64,000 nucleotides of DNA from an uncultured Candidatus Saccharibacteria bacterium. GTDB taxonomy: Bacteria; Patescibacteriota; Saccharimonadia; Saccharimonadales; Saccharimonadaceae. Shown here in pieces: positions 47,552 to 59,126 of this stretch. The stretch lies in NCBI GenBank assembly GCA_947165975.1, contig CAMVCL010000003.1:1-64000 (forward strand). The letters run 5' to 3'. A program made the translations under genes and the position numbers. The notes beneath the pieces are model-generated. The model was not told the DNA's origin and made no database searches. It saw nothing but the letters and a program-made list of their open reading frames with translations. Position 1 is the first letter of the stretch. Every line of letters starts with the position of its first letter.

Positions 47552-48799
47552 ATGAAGAAATTATTAGAAAAATTGCCTTTTTATAATACTGCCGTATTGC
47601 CATACCATTATGCTCAAGCTGTTGTTGCGGGAGTCAAAAACGGCTTTCCCGGTCGTAAACTTCGCGTCATTGCTGTGACTGGCACTAATGGAAAAACGAC
47701 AACTTGTTTCATGCTTTGGCATATGTTAAATCAAGCCGGACATAAAACTGGTCTTATGACCACTGTTGCTTATGGTGTAGAAAAATTAGAACCAGAACTC
47801 GGTCACATGACCACCGTCGACGCATTTACCTTAAACCAGCGCATTAAAAACATCGCGAACCAAGGAGCCGAATTTCTCATTTTGGAAGTTACCTCCCACG
47901 CCTTATCTGAGTATCGTATCCTCAATATTCCTATAGAAATTGGGATTTTTACTAACTTAACTCACGAACATCTCGATTATCACAAAACCCTCGAAAATTA
48001 TCGTAACGCCAAAGGTAAGCTTTTCAAAAAAGCCAAATATAGTATTTTAAATGCCGATGATCCAGCTACCAAATATTATGAAAGCATCGCTAAAGATTAT
48101 ACTACTTATGGTATAAAAAAGGGCCAAAATCAACCAAAAGACGTTAAGTTACAGGTATCAGGTGTCAAATATTCATATCATGGCATGAATATCGAAACGC
48201 AAATTCCCGGCGAGTTTAATGTCTATAATTCCCTTGCCGCCGTCATTGCAGGTGAAAAGCTGGGATTAGAGCCAAAATCTATCGAAAAAGGCATCAAGAC
48301 ACTAAAAAGCGTCGAAGGACGCATGAATATTATCGATGAAGGACAAGATTTCACTGTGATCGTAGATTATGCGCACGCTCCCGATGCTATTGAAAAAGTC
48401 TTTAAATCTGTTGGCAAGCCTAAAGGTCGTATTATTTCAGTCCATGGTGGTGCCGGACGTCGTGATCCCTCTACAAGGCCAGTACGTGGCGAGCTTTTAG
48501 CTAAGCATTCCGATATTGTTATTATCACTGAAGATGACTCACGCGATGAGCCGCTAGACAAGATAATGCAGGGGTTTGTTGAAGGAGCAAAAAAAGCTGG
48601 TAAAACATTGAATAAGAATCTATTTACGGAACCCGATCGCGAAAAGGCCATTGAACTTGCACTTAGCAAAGCCAAAAAAGGTGATCTAGTCCTCGTACTC
48701 GGTAAAGGGCACGAAAAAACCATCCTTCGTGCCGATGGACCTCATGACTTTGAAGATATCAAAGTTACCAAAAAATTACTCAGAAAACTTAAAGTCTAG
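47552..48799 (+). CDS. Mur ligase family protein, MurE-like
   Basis: VIAVTGTNGKTTTCFMLWHML; NLTHEHLDYHKTLENY; VHGGAGRRDPSTRP. Confidence 0.92.
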   Translation: MKKLLEKLPFYNTAVLPYHYAQAVVAGVKNGFPGRKLRVIAVTGTNGKTTTCFMLWHMLNQAGHKTGLMTTVAYGVEKLEPELGHMTTVDAFTLNQRIKNIANQGAEFLILEVTSHALSEYRILNIPIEIGIFTNLTHEHLDYHKTLENYRNAKGKLFKKAKYSILNADDPATKYYESIAKDYTTYGIKKGQNQPKDVKLQVSGVKYSYHGMNIETQIPGEFNVYNSLAAVIAGEKLGLEPKSIEKGIKTLKSVEGRMNIIDEGQDFTVIVDYAHAPDAIEKVFKSVGKPKGRIISVHGGAGRRDPSTRPVRGELLAKHSDIVIITEDDSRDEPLDKIMQGFVEGAKKAGKTLNKNLFTEPDREKAIELALSKAKKGDLVLVLGKGHEKTILRADGPHDFEDIKVTKKLLRKLKV

Positions 48800-49545
48800 T
48801 TTGGTTCGTAATTTGCGATACCATCAACGATATTATCAACTGAAGCCCCTATTCCCTCAGCAATAGTTGCTGCACAAGCCATATAAGATACAGATGTTTC
48901 ACCTGGAACAAAAGTTGCTAAAGTGGTAATTTCTGACTGGATAGAAACTGTTGCTTCGGTCCCTTTAGCGTACAATTTAGAATTTAGTATTTTTACGTCA
49001 GAGCTGGAAAGACCAAAGGATAAAGTCTTTTTACTTCCCTTAAATTCTGCAAAAGTATTGTAATTAATATCATCGTGATTTAAGACAACAATTTCTGGTT
49101 TCATATCGAACAGAGTCTTTTCATTCTTTAGGAACTCCTCTGGTTCCATATCGCGAAGCCCAGCAGTCACAAAATTGGTCATCGCTGCAACATATACAGG
49201 AAGACCGTAAAAAATATTATCCCTCAATCCTTCTGCGGGCACAGTTACTATCACATAGTCAGCCCCCGCTTTCCAAGCGTCAGATAAAAATTTATGTAAC
49301 ATCCCCATCTTAAAAGGTTGGTCAGATGCCAATACTGCTACTTGTTCCCCCTTCGCTTTCATAATCTCATGTACATAATGAGCTACTGTCACCTTTCCGG
49401 TGCTACCAGTAATCGCGATCAATTTCATATCGCGCATCGGATTACCATAATATGACTTCAAAACCCGAGCTTTCAATTTTTGTCGTCGAGTCTTCATTCC
49501 ACCATTTTTGTTTTTGGCCTTGGTTTCATTTTCCCGCTTGCTCAT
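48796..49545 (-). CDS. Truncated Mur-ligase-like P-loop protein (central domain only)
   Basis: KLIAITGSTGKVTVAHYVHEIMK; VAAMTNFVTAGLRDMEPEEFLKNEKTLFD; no C-terminal ligase domain. Confidence 0.65.
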   Translation of the reverse strand: MSKRENETKAKNKNGGMKTRRQKLKARVLKSYYGNPMRDMKLIAITGSTGKVTVAHYVHEIMKAKGEQVAVLASDQPFKMGMLHKFLSDAWKAGADYVIVTVPAEGLRDNIFYGLPVYVAAMTNFVTAGLRDMEPEEFLKNEKTLFDMKPEIVVLNHDDINYNTFAEFKGSKKTLSFGLSSSDVKILNSKLYAKGTEATVSIQSEITTLATFVPGETSVSYMACAATIAEGIGASVDNIVDGIANYEPN

Positions 49546-50672: not shown

Positions 50673-52121
50673 TTAGCAATCTTTACCGAAATCTTTTCTA
50701 AACGCTGCTGCTAATTTATCTGGCCAATCCGAGGTCGGCATCAATTTACCAGTAAAGAAACGCAAAGTTTTTGGTTCATGCGTGAACTTGAGGCCACCAA
50801 TCATTTCACGATGGTCAAACAACCATTTTACTCTATCTGTTACATATTCAACCTGCGACAGAGTAAACACTCTTCTCGGCATCGCCAAACGCACTAATTC
50901 CATTGAGGCAAAACGTTCACTTCCGTCTGGCTCGCGTTCTTCCGAAAGCGTACCTCTTTCCATACCACGGATTCCGCCACAAATATATAAAGCGCAGACT
51001 AAAGCTCCTGCTGGGTATTCTGTTTGAGGGATATGTTTAACGAATTCCATTGCGTTAATATGTGCTCCAAGTCCACCAGCTGGCGTTACCATCGGTACGC
51101 CATAGTCTACCAACTCATCAACGCAATATTTAATGAATTGTGGCCCTTGCGAGATTACATCCATCTCCATGCTTTCATCGAAACCCACCGTCATTGCTTC
51201 CATCTCACGTATCGACATTCCCCCATAAGTCAAAAATCCTTCGAACATTGGTACCAAATCTTCCATCGAATGGAATAGTTTTTCATCACGCACCAAGATT
51301 GCGCCACCTCTTGCGAAACCAAATTTTCTTGCCGAAAAATAAATTATATCAAAATTATCCGCAATCGCTCTAGTTATTTCGCGAATCGTCATATCCTTAC
51401 ATTCTTTCTCGCGAGTCTTATTAAAGAATAGGTTATCTTGGAGTAGCGAAGCGTCTAGCACCGTCAAGATTCCTTTATCGCGAGCGATCTTCGTTGCTTT
51501 TCTTATGTTATCTAATGAAACCGGCTGTCCACCAATCAAATTTGTGCCAGATTCAATTCGCATAAAAGCGATGTTTTTAGGAGTCTCTTCTTCTATGCAT
51601 TTTTTTAATTTATCAAGATCTATATCACCTTTGAATGGTAAAGTACTTTTAGTCTCCAACCCTTCATCCTTCACCAACTCTTCGACATGGCCACCCAGCC
51701 TAGTAATATGAGCTTTGGCCGTAGTGAAATGGTAATTCATGACTACACAATTGCCAGGTTTCACAAATCTAGTTGCCAAAATATTTTCGCATGCTCTTCC
51801 CTGATGTGCTGGCAAACAATGACTAATTCCAAAAATCTCTGCCAGTTTATCCTGCATTTTATAAAAAGTTTCACTTCCTGCATATGCATCATCCGGTTGC
51901 ATCATTGCTGATAACTGATGGTTACTCATTGCATTTACACCAGAATCAGTTAGCATATCCATAAAGATATCACCATTATGCAATTGGAAAGTATTAAATC
52001 CTGCTTCCTTCATTTTTTTCAGCCTCTCATCGACCGGTAAAAGACTGAGTTGCTTTACGATTTCTACACGATGTAGCTCTAGTGGTACTTCTTTATTCTT
52101 ATAGAATTTAATATTGGGCAT
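50673..52121 (-). CDS. Tyrosine phenol-lyase / tryptophanase family PLP lyase, TPL-like
   Basis: DERLKKMKEAGFNTFQLHNGDIFMDMLTDSGVNAMS...AYAGSETFY; AHQGRACEN; GIRGMERG matches the TPL-type MERG rather than TnaA VEIG; SD AAAGGAG. Confidence 0.88.
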   Translation of the reverse strand: MPNIKFYKNKEVPLELHRVEIVKQLSLLPVDERLKKMKEAGFNTFQLHNGDIFMDMLTDSGVNAMSNHQLSAMMQPDDAYAGSETFYKMQDKLAEIFGISHCLPAHQGRACENILATRFVKPGNCVVMNYHFTTAKAHITRLGGHVEELVKDEGLETKSTLPFKGDIDLDKLKKCIEEETPKNIAFMRIESGTNLIGGQPVSLDNIRKATKIARDKGILTVLDASLLQDNLFFNKTREKECKDMTIREITRAIADNFDIIYFSARKFGFARGGAILVRDEKLFHSMEDLVPMFEGFLTYGGMSIREMEAMTVGFDESMEMDVISQGPQFIKYCVDELVDYGVPMVTPAGGLGAHINAMEFVKHIPQTEYPAGALVCALYICGGIRGMERGTLSEEREPDGSERFASMELVRLAMPRRVFTLSQVEYVTDRVKWLFDHREMIGGLKFTHEPKTLRFFTGKLMPTSDWPDKLAAAFRKDFGKDC

Positions 52122-52143
52122 TTTATCTCCTTTCTTTTAGCGA

Positions 52144-52176
52144 TAAAAAAACTTCGCGGTCGTTTTGCCGCGAAGT
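52144..52176 (-). terminator. Intrinsic terminator between leader peptide and TPL-like gene
   Basis: Minus strand ACTTCGCGG-CAAAACGA-CCGCGAAGT-TTTTTTA. Confidence 0.88.
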
Positions 52177-52196
52177 ATAGTTTTATCCAAATTATT

Positions 52197-52259
52197 TTAA
52201 TTCACAGCAAAACAACCACCTTCACCATAGTAATAGTAGCTGTTTTGTGCAAATATCAT
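52197..52259 (-). CDS. 20-aa putative attenuator leader peptide MIFAQNSYYYYGEGGCFAVN
   Basis: Hand translation; four consecutive Tyr codons (TAC TAT TAC TAT); TAAAAT (52266-52271) 6 nt upstream; terminator downstream. Confidence 0.75.
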   Translation of the reverse strand: MIFAQNSYYYYGEGGCFAVN

Positions 52260-52265
52260 AAAATG

Positions 52266-52294
52266 ATTTTATAATAAACTAGATTTTTATGCAA
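52266..52294 (-). promoter_or_regulatory. Putative promoter of the leader: -10 TAAAAT, -35 TTGCAT, 17-bp spacer
   Basis: Minus strand TTGCAT-N17-TAAAAT-CATTTT-ATG. Confidence 0.55.
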
Positions 52295-52347: not shown

Positions 52348-52366
52348 TGGCGGAAGCGAGAGGATT
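52348..52366. repeat. att direct repeat, distal copy
   Basis: TGGCGGAAGCGAGAGGATT. Confidence 0.88.
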
Positions 52367-52779
52367 AGTGATTCTTTCATGCATCCTTCAAGACAACTAA
52401 TCAAGAACAAGTTCTTGCTTATCTGTCTTGGCGGACAGGTGTGTCACAAATTGGAACCTTCTCAAGGCGGAACTTATTCGTTGGGATAAACTCTTAACTC
52501 CTATCAGAGAAGAAAAAGAGTTATACCAATTAACTTAGTATATTAGAACTAATATAGGTAATATGGCTTGGTTCTAAACTTGTGAATACCGATGGTAAAA
52601 TCGTCTATTTGCCAAAGGCTATGTGCTACCAGAAGCGAAGAAACGACAACTCAATATAAAGCACCTTAACAGAGTAAATATCAAAGACCTAATAAAATAT
52701 CACTTTTGAACGAAAAATGTCGCAAAATGGTTAAAAATTGACAGATATTAGATTTTTAGTGATACTTTATCAGTGCCAA

Positions 52780-52980
52780 AACGCTTAAGTCCAACAGGGG
52801 TAAAGTTCCTATAAAGTTCCCAAATAAACGATAAATGCCGTATAAGTGTCGTATAAGTGTCGTTTTTTTGACATTTGATAAACGCTTAAAGGTTATGTTC
52901 AACGGGGGTAAATGTGCTATAAATGTCCAGAATAGCGACTATAACGCTTAAGTCCAACAGGGGTAAAGTGTGTATAAAGT
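52780..52980. repeat. Iteron-like repeats upstream of the tyrosine recombinase
   Basis: AACGCTTAAGTCCAACAGGGGTAAAGT at 52780-52806 and 52943-52969; variant at 52881-52914; tandem GTATAAGTGTC x2 at 52840-52861. Confidence 0.8.
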
Positions 52981-53064
52981 TGTGGAATGGGGGGTATCAT
53001 TTGACAATAGAAATAGTAATGCTACGATACGCTCGTCATATAAAAAATCAAGGAAGGACTACCA

Positions 53065-53967
53065 ATGATAAACGAGATAGCAATAATCAGCCAAGGAGAA
53101 CTTGGCTACAACGACAACATATTTAATTCCCTAGACATCAGCAACAATACCAAATTAGAGTATTTAAGCCGCCTTCCTAGGTTCTTTCAGTTTGCATCCA
53201 CTCAAACCATCAACCGAGATTTACTATTGCGATATAAGCAATATTTAAGAGATGATAATACACTTGGTATTAGTAGCAAAAACAAGTATTTGACCACTGC
53301 GAGAATAGCCCTGCGTGAATTGTATCGGCAAGGATTAACGCCCATAGATTTATCAGTCGGAGTTAGTTCATTCCAGCAAAACAGTAAGCACAAAGTGAAT
53401 GGCTTAAATGAAGAAGAAGTGTCGAGAATATGCGACTATCTGCGAGAGCAAGACAAGTCCTTCAAGAATATCAGACTGCGAGCGATTATATCGCTTTTAT
53501 TTTTTCAAGGACTACGGCAAGTCGAAATCTGCCGACTAAACTTTGATGATATCGACCTAGCAAATGGAGTTATAAAAGTGCTTGGAAAAGGACGGGAAGA
53601 CAAGGAATACATACATTTACATCCAGCAAGTCAAAAAGCCTTAAAACGCTATTTAAGAGCCTCTCACGCAAAATATGGACCAACCTTCTACTCGCTCAAT
53701 GGCAAAAACAAAGGCAACCGACTAACTACTAGGGGTTTAAGGCAAATAGTCCAAAACTTATTTAGCGATCTAGGCATAGAAAAGACCGTTCACGGAAGCC
53801 GACACTTTTTCACTACTGAACTTATCAAGTATTACAAATCAGACCTAACAACAGTCGCTAGATTTACTCGTCATAATTCACTGAATATGCTTCAGATTTA
53901 CAATGACGAAATCGCAAGCGAAAGCGACCCAGAACAATTAGCAAAGGCATTTCAGTATGACTTGTAA
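53065..53967 (+). CDS. Tyrosine recombinase/integrase
   Basis: GLRQVEICRLNFDDID, KVLGKGRED, HGSRHFFTTEL, TRHNSLNMLQIYNDE; TTGACA-N16-TACGAT promoter upstream. Confidence 0.95.
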   Translation: MINEIAIISQGELGYNDNIFNSLDISNNTKLEYLSRLPRFFQFASTQTINRDLLLRYKQYLRDDNTLGISSKNKYLTTARIALRELYRQGLTPIDLSVGVSSFQQNSKHKVNGLNEEEVSRICDYLREQDKSFKNIRLRAIISLLFFQGLRQVEICRLNFDDIDLANGVIKVLGKGREDKEYIHLHPASQKALKRYLRASHAKYGPTFYSLNGKNKGNRLTTRGLRQIVQNLFSDLGIEKTVHGSRHFFTTELIKYYKSDLTTVARFTRHNSLNMLQIYNDEIASESDPEQLAKAFQYDL

Positions 53968-54361
53968 AGAGCAAGAATTCAAACTGCGAGTTGTGGGTGG
54001 GCTGGACTTTTATGAAGTATCGTCTGCATTCATCAAGGAATTGGAAGCCCGCAATACATATAAGGCTTGCTTATGGGCATTTGTATTGCTTCAGAGCGGC
54101 TACTATAAGCATATATGGAAACACTTGGCTATCTATGCGAGCCAATTAGAGAGCAATCAGATAATCGAAATATCGGCACTACGAAATTGCTTCGACCTTA
54201 ACACGACAGCCAAAGACCGCAAAATGGAAGAAGGCTTTTGTTATATCTGTCGAGCAATCATCAGTCTTTGCAATGATAAGGAAAATACAGCAGAGATGAC
54301 GGATAAAATAATCAAAAAATACTGCTCTGGTTACTGGCCAGAACTGCTACCAGCATCTTAA
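53957..54361 (+). CDS. Hypothetical protein in element
   Basis: ORF translationally coupled (ATGA-type overlap) to the integrase. Confidence 0.6.
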   Translation: MTCKEQEFKLRVVGGLDFYEVSSAFIKELEARNTYKACLWAFVLLQSGYYKHIWKHLAIYASQLESNQIIEISALRNCFDLNTTAKDRKMEEGFCYICRAIISLCNDKENTAEMTDKIIKKYCSGYWPELLPAS

Positions 54362-54392
54362 TTTTAAGTACATTTTATGTTATAATTAAAAT

Positions 54393-54531
54393 GTTCGAAG
54401 TCCCAATCTATAGTAAGTCTATCCTGACTGAATAGGTAAAGTATTGAACCCTTCGTGGAGCACTCGCTCCAGTCGGCTCAATCGCTTACTGTAGAAACAG
54501 GAACTTCGAACACTCCTAGCGAGTGTTCCAC
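54393..54531 (+). ncRNA. Putative structured RNA / cis-regulatory RNA
   Basis: TATAAT 54381-54386 then 6 nt to GTTCGAAGT (54393-54401), which pairs with ACTTCGAAC (54503-54511); internal nested stems; alternative 14-bp pairing 54455-54468 / 54518-54531. Confidence 0.6.
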
Positions 54532-54581
54532 TTAGTTTTAGGGGCACTTCTCGGATTTAGTTAATTAACAAAGGAGTGCCA

Positions 54582-55484
54582 ATGGAAACAAATGATAATA
54601 TCAAATCTGCGAGTAAAGCCAAAAAAGGCTTACCGGACTTCTTCAAGCAACACAAGAAAAGTTGCTTAGTCGTGCTTGGTATTATCTTGGGGGTAATCAT
54701 TATTGGTGCTATTAGTGTTGCAATCAGGAACAATATCGAAGAAAACCGAGATTATTATATTTCGGTAGATAAAGAATATGCTTTTGATTGCAATGCAAGT
54801 TATGACGAGAAGACTAAAGAAATATCTTGCGAAGAACAAACAATAACTGGCAAGTTTTCAGAATACCCCACAGTAAAAATTGATGGCTATATTACGGTTC
54901 ATACTGACGGCGACAAGTTCAGCATTAAGCCTTACAACGACATATACAAGAGCCGTTACGAAACCGATGACTTTGATATTGAAAAATTAGAAAAAGGTTT
55001 ATCAACCGACTACATTATTTATCTTGAGAATACGCAACTAAACAAGCGCTTTGCAGAAACAACAATCTCTGTTCGTTATAAATTATCTGAAGCCGACAAG
55101 GAACTCATCACAAAGAAACATAATGACTGGAAAGAGTGGAAAGAAAGCGAAGACGTAAAGGCAAAAGCCGAGAGTAAAACCAAAGAGCAGGAGCAAAAAC
55201 AAGAAACAAAGTCCGAAACCAGCACGACAACCAGTGAAGAACGCTCTTATCTAGACGCACTCCGTAAATGCACAGTAATGGAAGCCGCCGATATCTACAC
55301 CACTGGTATTGGCAAAAAGAGCGACAATGTTTTCAATGACGGACGAGATACTTGCAATACTTGGTATTCGCAGTGGGGTGAAGATGATTTCTTTGAGGCT
55401 GTCTATATTGACTGGGAGAACCGCAAAACTGAAGAAATCGACGGGCAACCGCTAACATACTATCTAACAATTCTAGGTTGGTAA
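54582..55484 (+). CDS. Single-pass membrane hypothetical protein
   Basis: ORF with TM CLVVLGIILGVIIIGAISVAI; start ATG 54582 after SD aaaggag. Confidence 0.7.
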   Translation: METNDNIKSASKAKKGLPDFFKQHKKSCLVVLGIILGVIIIGAISVAIRNNIEENRDYYISVDKEYAFDCNASYDEKTKEISCEEQTITGKFSEYPTVKIDGYITVHTDGDKFSIKPYNDIYKSRYETDDFDIEKLEKGLSTDYIIYLENTQLNKRFAETTISVRYKLSEADKELITKKHNDWKEWKESEDVKAKAESKTKEQEQKQETKSETSTTTSEERSYLDALRKCTVMEAADIYTTGIGKKSDNVFNDGRDTCNTWYSQWGEDDFFEAVYIDWENRKTEEIDGQPLTYYLTILGW

Positions 55485-55493
55485 GGAGTTTAT

Positions 55494-56117
55494 ATGGGAT
55501 TATTTGATGGCATTAAACAGATGAAGAAGAATAATGATGATTTCATTAAATCATTTACCAAACCATTTGAAGAAAAGAAAGCGGCAACCGAAGCCCACAA
55601 ACAGGCTGTTGCTAATGGTGATATCTCGCCAATCACTCCGTCTGTTAAATTGAAGCAAGGCGAGAAAGCCTATGTAGAGTTTCCTGCAAAGCGCAAAGCC
55701 ATAGTAACCACGACCATTCAACGAACCGTCGAAAAAACTAAGAAGAAGGGCGGAATAACTAGAGCAGTGGTTGGCGGAGCGCTACTCGGACCAGTTGGAG
55801 CGGTAGTCGGAGCAACCACCGCCAAGAGTAAAGGTAATTCAGTTGGCTATACTGAAGATATAGAAAGCCTAAACGATATAGACCAAGGGATCTTGGTGCT
55901 TACTGACCAGCGTATGTTATTTGTTGGGCAAGAGATTGTTAGTATTCCGTATGATGAACTGATAGGTGTTAAGTTTGAAAACACAATTACTGGTGCGGAA
56001 ATCAGCGCCAAATATGCAGGTATGCTAAAGGGCGAGCAATATTTCATCTCTGGCAAAGAAGCGAAGTTGTCGAAAATGTATTATCAGGCCATTACGGAGA
56101 AGTTGTTGAAAGCCTAA
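55494..56117 (+). CDS. PH-like domain hypothetical protein
   Basis: GGALLGPVGAVVGATTAKS; DQGILVLTDQRMLFVGQEIVSIPYDELIGVKFE. Confidence 0.65.
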   Translation: MGLFDGIKQMKKNNDDFIKSFTKPFEEKKAATEAHKQAVANGDISPITPSVKLKQGEKAYVEFPAKRKAIVTTTIQRTVEKTKKKGGITRAVVGGALLGPVGAVVGATTAKSKGNSVGYTEDIESLNDIDQGILVLTDQRMLFVGQEIVSIPYDELIGVKFENTITGAEISAKYAGMLKGEQYFISGKEAKLSKMYYQAITEKLLKA

Positions 56118-56232
56118 AATCGGCTCATTATGCCGATAATTTCAATTACAAGAATTATCTATTTAGTGCCCTTCCGTATCTGTAAAACAGTTTAAAATAT
56201 GTTATAATAATTCGAGAAGGACTAAGTTCATA

Positions 56233-57081
56233 ATGCTCGAAGACAGCGTAGGCAAATCAACCCACAAAGTTTGGCTAAAATATCCAGACAAGGAATACGA
56301 GAAGCCATACTTATTCCCGATTGGCGGACTTCGAGGCGACATTATAACTTTAGCAAAATCTGACAATGGTGAAACTCAAATACAGAAAAAGTATAGAATA
56401 CCAGATAACCTAGAGAAAAACCTTTATCTAGAAACCACACTAGAAGACATCAAAAATCTGAACAAGACAAAGTGCATAAGAATAAATACACTGGAAGAAA
56501 AAGACGGTTTCTTGATAGTCGATATTATTCTGAATGAACCTCGTTGCTCTTATTATGTATGGGGCAAATCTGATTTGATTAACAATGAACGCCAACGAGA
56601 AAATCTTAATAGGTTTCGGCAATATCCAGTCATCGATAAGAATAAGACATATCAATGCCGTATTGTTATGTTGGGCAAGCAAGTTTATTTGAAATGGGAT
56701 AATAGCCTGCATTGGCTTTATGGTTTTAAGAATAATGATAAGTCTTCAAGATACAATTTAACAAAAATACTACTCGGCGCAACAGATATAACGCACCAAG
56801 CAAAGGAACTCGAGAGTAAAGGGATCAAGTTCCCACCAAAAAGATTAAAAGAGATAATGACCAAAGCGTTTTTGAGGGATACATTGAGAAAGCGATTTAT
56901 GCTTTCAACTGGGCCAGATAATATTGGCATTAGAAGTAGAGTAGATATTATTGGCGAAGACTTAATAAAGATTATCAGGGAGCAACTCCAATACTATGTT
57001 AAAGAAACTTCTCGTCATAGGCTTCAAAAAATGGAACACGACATAGAAAAGGCGAAGAAGAATTTACTCCGCAAAATATAA
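56233..57081 (+). CDS. Hypothetical protein in element
   Basis: 282-codon ORF preceded by ttataat and an SD-like aagga. Confidence 0.6.
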   Translation: MLEDSVGKSTHKVWLKYPDKEYEKPYLFPIGGLRGDIITLAKSDNGETQIQKKYRIPDNLEKNLYLETTLEDIKNLNKTKCIRINTLEEKDGFLIVDIILNEPRCSYYVWGKSDLINNERQRENLNRFRQYPVIDKNKTYQCRIVMLGKQVYLKWDNSLHWLYGFKNNDKSSRYNLTKILLGATDITHQAKELESKGIKFPPKRLKEIMTKAFLRDTLRKRFMLSTGPDNIGIRSRVDIIGEDLIKIIREQLQYYVKETSRHRLQKMEHDIEKAKKNLLRKI

Positions 57082-57142
57082 TAGTCAACCCATATTTTTA
57101 CTCCGCGAAACTTCTTGAAGTTTATATTTACTCCGCAAAATA
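57063..57142. repeat. Three spaced direct repeats TTTACTCCGC(A/G)AAA
   Basis: 57063-57078, 57097-57111, 57127-57142. Confidence 0.85.
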
Positions 57143-57166
57143 AAAATCACAGTGTAGATTTGCGGT

Positions 57167-57355
57167 ATGAACCCGCAGGAAGAAATAATGACAGTCGCAG
57201 AACTTCGTAAAATCGTTAAAGCCGAGTATTCTTCGACTTTAGTCCTTCCAAGCGATGACGAACTCAAAGATTGCATCAATCTTCTTGCTGGGCTCGCAAC
57301 TTTACAATATAAACTCTCTAAGAGAGAAACCCCCAAAACGAGATACGGCGAGTAG
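57167..57355 (+). CDS. Small hypothetical protein
   Basis: 62-aa ORF; stop overlaps a GGCGAGT...ACTCGCC hairpin followed by TTTCTT. Confidence 0.45.
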   Translation: MNPQEEIMTVAELRKIVKAEYSSTLVLPSDDELKDCINLLAGLATLQYKLSKRETPKTRYGE

Positions 57356-57437
57356 GAGAAGAACCACGAGTTCGAAACTCCACTCGCCTTTCTTGACTTT
57401 TGGTGTTTTTCAAAGAGAATAAAAGAAAGGATACTAT

Positions 57438-59126
57438 ATGACTAAACAGTCAAATATCAAAAAACGCAAAGCAGTTATCTACGCTCGAGTTTCTAGTGAG
57501 CGGCAAGTAGATAATATGAGCCTAGGCGAGCAACAAAGAGTTTGTAAGGCTTATTGCAAACGCTACTTCAAAGATGATGTTTCGGAAGAACGTATCTTTG
57601 TAGAAAAAGGCGAGAGCGCCAAAACCGCCAATCGAACAGAACTTCAAAAAATGCTGAAGTATTGTGCTCAACACAAGAAAGAGATTGGCTATGTGGTTGT
57701 CTACAAAGTCGATAGATTTTCACGCAAAGTAGCAGACTTCGCAGCACTGAAAGCAATCCTTGCAAAAATGGGTATAGCCTTGCGATCCGTAACCGAGCCA
57801 ATCGGAGAAGAAAGCAACACTAGCGTTCTTATGGAAAACATTTTAGCCTGTTTCGCTCAATTTGACAACGATATGAGAGGCGAGCGAGCACAGACTGGAA
57901 TGCGAGCAGTCGCAAATGAAGGTGGCTGGACAATGTGCGCACCAGTAGGTTACATAAACTGGAAGAATGAAGCAAAGAAATCGACCTTAAAGGTAGATGA
58001 AGAAATGCGAAAGCCTATACAAAAGTTCTTTACTAAGTTTGCTACTGGTCTTTATACACAAGAAGAAGCAGTCGAACTAGCAAAGAAATGTGGTATTCGC
58101 AACAAAAAAGGTGAGCCGATGTCTAGAACCGGTATTCATAAAATGTTGAGAGCACCAGTCTATGCTGGGTGGGTTTGCAATAAATCTACTGACGGCAGAA
58201 TGGTAGTAGGGCTTCACGAGGCACTTATAGACAAGAAAGATTGGTACAAGATACAAGATTTACTAGACGGCAGAACCGAAGAAGGACTTCCGACTAGAAG
58301 TAGGTTGCCGAAGTATCATAAGAATAATTCCAAGTTTCCGCTACGCCGTTTTTTCGTATGTAGCATCTGTGGTAAACCGCTAACTGGTAGCACTTCGAAA
58401 GGTCATACAACTTGCGTTTCGTACTACCATTGCCATAGATGCAGTGTAAAGAACTGCGGTCATCGTGTTTCCGTTCAGCAAGAAGAAGCACACAGAAAAT
58501 TCGAGGAGTTGCTGGCTCAAATAGAGCCAGCCCCTTGGGTTCCAGCAGTGTTTAAAGAGATAGTCATTAGACAATGGAATGAAGATTTTAGAAGCGCCAT
58601 TAGAGATGTAGAAAGCATAAATAGTAAAATTTCTGAATTGGAACACAAGAAATGTAATTTAATTGAGAAGTATGCGGACGATAAGATTAGCGAAGAGGAC
58701 TATCGAAATATGATTGCTGGCTACGAGCAAACCAAGCGTAGTTTGGAAGCCGAAAGAGTAAGTCTAGAAGAAAACAAAGTAACTAGAGAAAGCGTAATCG
58801 ACACTGCAATGGAGTTTATAACTGGACTGGTCACTACTTGGCGAAATCTACCCCTGGAAGAAAAGCAAAAGTTCCAAATTGCAATTTTTCCAAAGAAAAT
58901 TACAGTGTTACCAAATGGCGACTTTGGAACCTATGAATTAAGCCCGATTTTTCAAGAAACAACAGAGATAGAACGCACATTAACAAATGATAAAAAAGGC
59001 TCCCCTTCGGGGGATGCCACTATGGCGGAAGCGAGAGGATTCGAACCTCCGAGAGTCTTGCGACCCCACACGATTTCGAGTCGTGCGCCTTCAACCACTC
59101 GGCCACGCTTCCGCCTACAATTCTAG
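57438..59126 (+). CDS. Large serine recombinase; ORF reads through att and antisense to tRNA-Ser
   Basis: AVIYARVSSERQVDNMSLGEQ; YKVDRFSRKVADF; recombinase Zn-ribbon CSICGKPLTG...CHRCSVKNCG. Confidence 0.93.
   Translation: MTKQSNIKKRKAVIYARVSSERQVDNMSLGEQQRVCKAYCKRYFKDDVSEERIFVEKGESAKTANRTELQKMLKYCAQHKKEIGYVVVYKVDRFSRKVADFAALKAILAKMGIALRSVTEPIGEESNTSVLMENILACFAQFDNDMRGERAQTGMRAVANEGGWTMCAPVGYINWKNEAKKSTLKVDEEMRKPIQKFFTKFATGLYTQEEAVELAKKCGIRNKKGEPMSRTGIHKMLRAPVYAGWVCNKSTDGRMVVGLHEALIDKKDWYKIQDLLDGRTEEGLPTRSRLPKYHKNNSKFPLRRFFVCSICGKPLTGSTSKGHTTCVSYYHCHRCSVKNCGHRVSVQQEEAHRKFEELLAQIEPAPWVPAVFKEIVIRQWNEDFRSAIRDVESINSKISELEHKKCNLIEKYADDKISEEDYRNMIAGYEQTKRSLEAERVSLEENKVTRESVIDTAMEFITGLVTTWRNLPLEEKQKFQIAIFPKKITVLPNGDFGTYELSPIFQETTEIERTLTNDKKGSPSGDATMAEARGFEPPRVLRPHTISSRAPSTTRPRFRLQF
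58991..59018 (-). terminator. Terminator immediately 3' of tRNA-Ser(CGA), lying inside the element
   Basis: Minus strand GGCATCCCCCGAAGGGGAGCC-TTTTTTA. Confidence 0.7.
59023..59112 (-). tRNA. tRNA-Ser (anticodon CGA), CCA encoded
   Basis: Reverse complement GGAAGCGTGGCCGAGTGGTTGAAGGCGCACGACTCGAAATCGTG...CGCTTCCGCCA. Confidence 0.95.

Follow-up and report, generated by a model that had tools for sequence, protein, structure and literature searches.

Transcription attenuators of the trp, his, phe and leu operons (Rfam Trp_leader, His_leader and Phe_leader) combine a short leader open reading frame (ORF) with a codon run, mutually exclusive RNA helices and a terminator upstream of the first structural gene, and the locus described here shares this arrangement. 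To our knowledge, no Tyr-codon attenuator is among the amino-acid attenuators, and a comparative study of Actinobacteria listed tyrosine under T-boxes and not under attenuators (PMC1262725). The Tyr T-box (RF00230), which in Firmicutes precedes tyrS and genes for tyrosine biosynthesis and phenylalanine hydroxylase, reads the same signal as the leader proposed here, tRNA-Tyr charging, and likewise acts through transcription antitermination; its presence on tyrosine biosynthesis genes has been described (PMC2494555). A leader peptide before a homologous lyase gene is likewise known from tnaC of tryptophanase, where free tryptophan induces arrest (PMC8429421). Tyrosine phenol-lyase (TPL) is a homolog of tryptophanase, both enzymes normally being catabolic, and enterobacterial TPL is induced by tyrosine via TyrR.

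Here, we analyzed a 64,000-nucleotide stretch of DNA from an uncultured Candidatus Saccharibacteria bacterium, referred to as the window, in which a TPL-like lyase gene is preceded by a leader that is very likely a ribosome-mediated transcription attenuator sensing tRNA-Tyr charging. This reading is inferred from sequence alone, and ribosome stalling and antitermination in vivo are parts of the inference.

Layout of the leader at the lyase gene

The following features, all on the minus strand, make up the locus; the basis of each is given in brackets.

52266-52294, minus strand: promoter-like element with -35 TTGCAT (52294-52289), a 17-nt spacer and -10 TAAAAT (52271-52266) (sequence)
52197-52259, minus strand: leader ORF MIFAQNSYYYYGEGGCFAVN, 20 codons plus stop (sequence; Tyr-run homologs at 25 other loci)
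52227-52238, minus strand: four Tyr codons TAC TAT TAC TAT, the regulatory run (sequence; present in all 26 loci)
52227-52254, minus strand: segment 1, the protector, which forms the 5′ strand of hairpin 1:2 (MFE fold of the leader without a ribosome)
52201-52219, minus strand: segment 2, partner of either segment 1 or segment 3 (pairing energies, alignment, folding)
52156-52174, minus strand: segment 3, antiterminator partner of segment 2 (pairing energies, alignment, MFE fold)
52144-52176, minus strand: intrinsic terminator 3:4, 9-bp stem plus T7 run (scan, alignment, fold)
52127-52132, minus strand: Shine-Dalgarno (SD) AAGGAG of the lyase gene (sequence)
50673-52121, minus strand: beta-eliminating lyase of the TPL/tryptophanase family, 482 aa (profile matches, alignment, solved relatives)

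Segment 1 overlaps the Tyr run, the 3′ end of segment 2 directly precedes the leader stop codon, and, within the terminator, segment 3 takes up the 5′ arm, the loop and a portion of the 3′ arm. The terminator arms ACTTCGCGG/CCGCGAAGT (52176-52151) are followed by seven T and were picked up by the terminator scan, and the lyase ATG at 52121 lies 3′ of AAGGAG. An initial annotation of this DNA had already placed the promoter-like element, leader ORF, terminator, SD and ATG, and these positions held to the base; the 13-bp pairing that it proposed between segments 2 and 3 also held and proved longer, with 19 contiguous pairs (52219-52201 with 52174-52156). No Rfam family matched the window leader.

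The -35/-10 pair misses the 9-of-12 threshold of the promoter/terminator scan and the transcription start is unmapped, and the element is therefore inferred to be promoter-like only. Its -10 hexamer lies 6 nt from the leader ATG, and the layout is matched at the locus of a same-genus relative (L002: TTGACT-N17-TAAAAT, 8 nt, leader ATG). Given these short distances, the mRNA from which the saccharibacterial leader ORF is translated may be leaderless or nearly so. Many Mogibacterium loci, unlike the saccharibacterial ones, have an SD-like AAGG before the leader ORF.

Conservation, covariation and modelled switching of the helices

A homologous leader was found at 26 loci including the window, two in Saccharibacteria and 24 in Mogibacterium-type gut Firmicutes. 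All 26 carry four to eight consecutive Tyr codons, a terminator followed by the lyase gene, and competing 1:2, 2:3 and 3:4 helices. The check that the initial annotation had proposed, for a short Tyr-rich ORF and terminator in related genomes, was thus run and gave conservation throughout these loci, and a chance origin of the Tyr run was rejected on the strength of the homologous leaders at other loci. Across 27 bearer-type genomes searched, the pattern (TAY)6YNC, where present, occurred at a single site per genome, on the lyase-leader contig. The peptide beyond the Tyr run varies and is read in two frames, GCFAV in the Saccharibacteria and loci L007, L041 and L071, and VAVLL in most Mogibacterium loci, while the nucleotides around TGTTTTGCTGTG persist across both. 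Two peptide frames over one conserved nucleotide motif indicate that the RNA and the Tyr codons, not the peptide, are under selection. Despite sequence differences between the two saccharibacterial copies, both retain the Tyr run, the terminator and 2:3 helices of 17-19 bp.

Two loci showed further peculiarities. At L071 (G128:C13:29125-30566), from a Mogibacterium MAG, the lyase frame is split near residue 430, by a frameshift or an assembly error, and the Tyr leader is intact. At L003, the lyase gene has a group II intron match (L003:107-172) a short distance upstream, by which the leader may have been displaced in that genome.

In the window, the pairing energies were E(1:2) -23.9, E(2:3) -27.9 and E(3:4) -14.2 kcal/mol. 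When segment 2 was dinucleotide-shuffled, the mean 2:3 energy was -14.2 kcal/mol and none of 400 shuffles matched the native value, and 1:2 pairing fell to -13.1 kcal/mol; the 2:3 pairing of the window is therefore beyond chance. The terminator boundaries behind the 2:3 statistics are single-hairpin limits for each locus.

Covariation was assessed on a plain MAFFT alignment of 22 leaders with the pairs defined from the window sequence. The 15 aligned pairs of 2:3 were 97.1% paired, four of them with two-sided changes, and the nine pairs of 3:4 were 97.0% paired, seven with two-sided changes, whereas slid controls reached at most 65% and 53%, respectively. The shuffle control in these counts ignores relatedness and the structure came from the window sequence, and the weight is therefore placed mainly on the two-sided changes, from which support for both the 2:3 and the 3:4 helix is inferred. 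The leader, the Tyr run and the competing helices, together with their conservation and covariation, are shown by the sequences.

Switching was modelled by partition-function folding of the leader minus the part covered by a ribosome, taken as the 12 nt that begin with the A-site codon. Across the 26 loci, the mean modelled terminator probability was 0.98 without a ribosome and 0.99 with the ribosome at the stop codon, and it was 0.49, 0.23 and 0.16 for a stall at the first, second and third Tyr codon, respectively. For the window, the corresponding series (no ribosome, Tyr 1, Tyr 2, Tyr 3, stop) was 0.99, 0.00, 0.00, 0.00 and 0.99. Shuffling segment 2 in the first-Tyr stall brought the modelled terminator probability back to 0.95, compared with the native mean for that stall. 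What an attenuator demands is met as follows: the leader ORF is translatable and has a codon run for the sensed amino acid; competing 1:2, 2:3 and 3:4 helices with a terminator before the gene are present, weakly so in L012 and L019; and the ribosome position decides the fold in the models for 22 of the 26 loci, those with a terminator probability <0.5 in the third-Tyr stall. Antitermination was not predicted by the folding model for L012 and L019. Homologs, covariation and modelled folding, including the alternative-structure and covariation checks that the initial annotation had called for, thus support the trp/his-type attenuation that it proposed.

In the proposed mechanism, when charged tRNA-Tyr is available, the ribosome would read past the Tyr run to the stop codon and cover segment 2, so that terminator 3:4 forms and the lyase gene stays off. 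An untranslated leader would likewise leave the gene off, with 1:2 protecting the terminator. When charged tRNA-Tyr is scarce, the ribosome would stall on the Tyr codons and cover segment 1, segments 2 and 3 would pair, no terminator would form and the lyase would be made.

Tyr T-boxes, pathway genes and the direction of the lyase

Four homologous lyase genes carry a T-box (RF00230) where others have the leader, namely L005 (111.0 bits) and L015 (105.8 bits), both from Bacilli, and L113 (100.8 bits) and L114 (109.6 bits), from the family of G107, with lyases 56-59% identical. All four have the Tyr codon UAC at the specifier position, and in the one partly informative control, a GatC-like gene behind a T-box at L151, the equivalent place reads AAC (Asn). 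On the tree, the T-box homologs sit at two separate positions, and the three regulatory states need 5 changes compared with a shuffled mean of 26.4. No T-box was found before the lyase gene in the other loci scanned, mostly of the non-leader group. These Tyr T-boxes on homologous genes are shown by sequence; as an inference, they independently support expression of the same gene upon Tyr-tRNA shortage.

A T-box at the window lyase was considered and rejected, RF00230 being absent from the window and from its whole genome. The T-box at L078:4522-4771 is positioned immediately 3′ of the lyase gene, where it would act on the gene that follows.

Prephenate dehydrogenase (tyrA; PF02153, E below 1e-10) was called in 4 of the 29 genomes with a Tyr-sensing leader versus all 18 without (Fisher p ~1.6e-9). 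The four are those of L011, L012, L019 and L043. The L012 and L043 matches lie on one 8.5-kb contig that is 99.95% identical between the MAGs and also with L006; this aromatic-biosynthesis contig (L140, L141, L142) is present in MAGs G105, G111 and G125, whose lyases are only 79-80% identical. Such contig identity despite the divergence of the lyases makes binning contamination in these public MAGs very probable, and the aromatic pathway was therefore discounted in L012, L043 and L006 (leader undetermined). In L011 and L019, both the leader and tyrA are present. Chorismate synthase (aroC) was found in 18 of 18 genomes without the leader versus five full-length copies and one fragment in the 29 with it, and phenylalanine hydroxylase was not found in these 29 genomes. 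In G848 (L114), chorismate synthase is present and tyrA is not.

These counts are not independent by descent, the Mogibacterium-type bearers being one clade; furthermore, Saccharibacteria lack tyrosine and aromatic pathways anyway, and MAG completeness is mostly unknown. The two T-box lineages provide the informative additional contrasts. The absence of tyrA and aroC in the counts above is shown. Together with the Tyr T-boxes on the same gene elsewhere, this loss of tyrosine biosynthesis in the bearers supports the logic that the initial annotation had read from the window, namely expression on shortage of charged tRNA-Tyr.

The lyase of the window matches PF01212 and the PRK13238 'tryptophanase' subfamily (563.1 bits vs a cutoff of 285), and scores 418.1 bits against the TPL equivalog TIGR02618 (NCBIfam), under its curated cutoff of 720.7. 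Its best solved relatives are TPLs, with ~40% identity to characterised TPL. Among 82 homologs, the equivalents of Tyr71, Thr124, Asp214, Lys257, Met379, Arg381 and Arg404 are invariant, and that of Phe448 is present in 80, the remaining two being gaps; all 82 carry the subfamily marks Arg217 to Leu and Lys256 to Arg. We infer that the lyase has the specificity residues of TPL (the Thr124, Met379, Arg381 and Phe448 equivalents) rather than those of tryptophanase, and that it forms a distinct subfamily, a cousin of characterised TPL, whose catalysis may differ; no enzyme data are at hand.

The chemistry by which TPL makes tyrosine out of phenol with pyruvate and ammonia, or with serine instead, is established, and ammonia is abundant in gut contents. 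In the proposed scheme, the lyase would make tyrosine by this reaction in hosts without the shikimate/prephenate route. The lyase would be on when tyrosine is short, and its most likely use is therefore tyrosine synthesis; moreover, the occurrence of two tRNA-Tyr sensors of unrelated kinds at the same enzyme, in organisms auxotrophic for tyrosine, suggests that the enzyme is probably anabolic. With the reaction direction inferred, no enzyme data and the phenol supply unproven, we lean only modestly towards the lyase making tyrosine from phenol. A bolder reading, which we favour by a similarly narrow margin, is that gut bacteria without the shikimate route, among them one of the candidate phyla radiation (CPR), rely on the TPL-type lyase as their physiological tyrosine synthase, that this enzyme draws on environmental phenol, and that it is regulated as a biosynthetic gene by a poly-Tyr attenuator and by a T-box that at least two lineages have acquired. 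If true, this predicts a shikimate-independent tyrosine route from phenol in rumen and gut bacteria, and an episymbiont-type bacterium and its gut-bacterial relatives would run a supposedly tyrosine-degrading enzyme backwards.

Distribution, rival explanations and known systems

Among 394 genomes of the Saccharibacteria class searched, the lyase gene was found in the window genome and in one same-genus relative, G401 (contig L002; Candidatus Saccharibacteria RGIG5615, sheep duodenum), at 88% identity; the third match was a 35% fragment. The other lyase homologs are almost all from gut Firmicutes, and transfer from Firmicutes to Saccharibacteria is therefore the simplest reading. It is likely, as an inference, that the attenuator belongs mainly to gut Firmicutes and reached Saccharibacteria along with its gene; the framing of the initial annotation, which had viewed it in the context of CPR bacteria, is corrected accordingly, the element not being CPR-specific.

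The window and L002 have in common the gene order tRNA-Ser(CGA), leader, lyase, RhuM/Fic and Mur-ligase-like gene. In the window only, 6.7 kb of additional DNA (52348-59041) lies between tRNA-Ser(CGA) and the leader. A 19-bp stretch of the tRNA 3′ end is repeated on either side of this element (52366-52348 and 59041-59023), which contains genes of unknown function as well as two recombinase genes:

57438-59126: serine recombinase of the 6.7-kb element
53065-53967: tyrosine recombinase of the 6.7-kb element

Judged by its sequence, 52348-59041 resembles integrative elements that make use of a tRNA gene; at the corresponding place, L002 keeps a short repeat of this tRNA-Ser(CGA) end. Directly downstream of the lyase gene, also in L002, 49569-50588 encodes a RhuM-type N-terminus fused to a Fic/DOC domain, and co-transcription with the lyase gene is possible. 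The gene at 48796-49545 encodes a short Mur-ligase-like protein of 249 aa with the middle domain only; it is kept in L002 and adjoins a full MurE-like gene. Among L055-L081, many homologs without the Tyr-sensing leader show an apparent divergent regulator gene upstream and ATCGAAAATTTCGAT-like motifs, and another group has GCTTTAACGCTTTAAAG-like repeats; these regions possibly reflect a different, protein-based regulation of the same enzyme.

Three rival explanations were weighed. The one that survives best, although we consider it unlikely, holds that the attenuator works and that the lyase is no tyrosine synthase, having another substrate or another purpose in tyrosine starvation. The moderate identity to characterised TPL, below the equivalog cutoff, and the two substitutions at Arg217 and Lys256 in every subfamily member speak for it; the TPL specificity residues kept in all or nearly all homologs, and regulation and genome content that point to tyrosine supply, speak against it.

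According to the second, the leader is a tnaC-like nascent-peptide sensor in which ribosome arrest brought about by free tyrosine would switch on a catabolic TPL, by analogy with tryptophan and tryptophanase. In its favour, the leader is short and has codons for the amino acid that is the substrate of the lyase, and both enzymes are homologous and usually degradative. Against it, no peptide conservation is seen outside the Tyr run and the C-terminal part is read in two frames across homologs, the competing helices are classical and covary by base pair, homologous genes carry Tyr T-boxes, which are switched on by uncharged tRNA, and the bearers lack tyrosine synthesis. What defines a tnaC-type arrest peptide, i.e., conserved residues beyond the sensed one and an arrest position, is not met, and we regard this rival as very unlikely. 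The initial annotation had been puzzled by a catabolic enzyme expressed on tyrosine shortage and offered two escapes; the anabolic enzyme fits, and tnaC-like arrest does not.

A third, that the saccharibacterial leader is a non-functional relic carried in with a transferred Firmicutes gene, draws on the rarity of the gene in the class (one relative among the 394 genomes) and its mostly Firmicutes homologs, and is very unlikely given that both diverged copies keep the Tyr run, the long 2:3 helix and the terminator, that the switch is modelled in them as well as anywhere, and that in each a promoter-like element directly adjoins the leader ATG and the downstream synteny is common to the two.

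The preferred reading thus remains a Tyr-codon attenuator, and it implies, by inference, that gene and RNA switch moved jointly from Firmicutes into Saccharibacteria and were maintained there. The literature searched, which excluded subscription journals, yielded no Tyr-codon attenuator, no attenuator of a CPR bacterium, and no paper joining TPL with leader-peptide attenuation or, in the relevant sense, with a T-box. Compared with the trp, his, phe and leu attenuators, the run here consists of Tyr codons, the gene controlled encodes a lyase that is usually counted as catabolic, and the bearers are gut Firmicutes and Saccharibacteria. The T-box differs from the window leader in that it binds the tRNA directly, without a leader peptide. 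tnaC is induced by excess amino acid via conserved peptide residues, whereas only the Tyr codons are conserved in the window leader and the predicted sign is opposite. The TPLs of Citrobacter freundii and Pantoea have the same fold family and specificity residues as the window lyase, which belongs to a distinct subfamily and is predicted to be on when tyrosine is short, again the opposite sign. Tyr attenuators and Tyr T-boxes on one enzyme in genomes without tyrosine synthesis would reverse the degradative view of TPL. Collectively, the mechanism class is known; judged by the literature searched, the novelty lies in the Tyr codon, in the lyase as target and in the taxa, and also in the four Tyr (UAC) T-box homologs in two lineages at the same gene.
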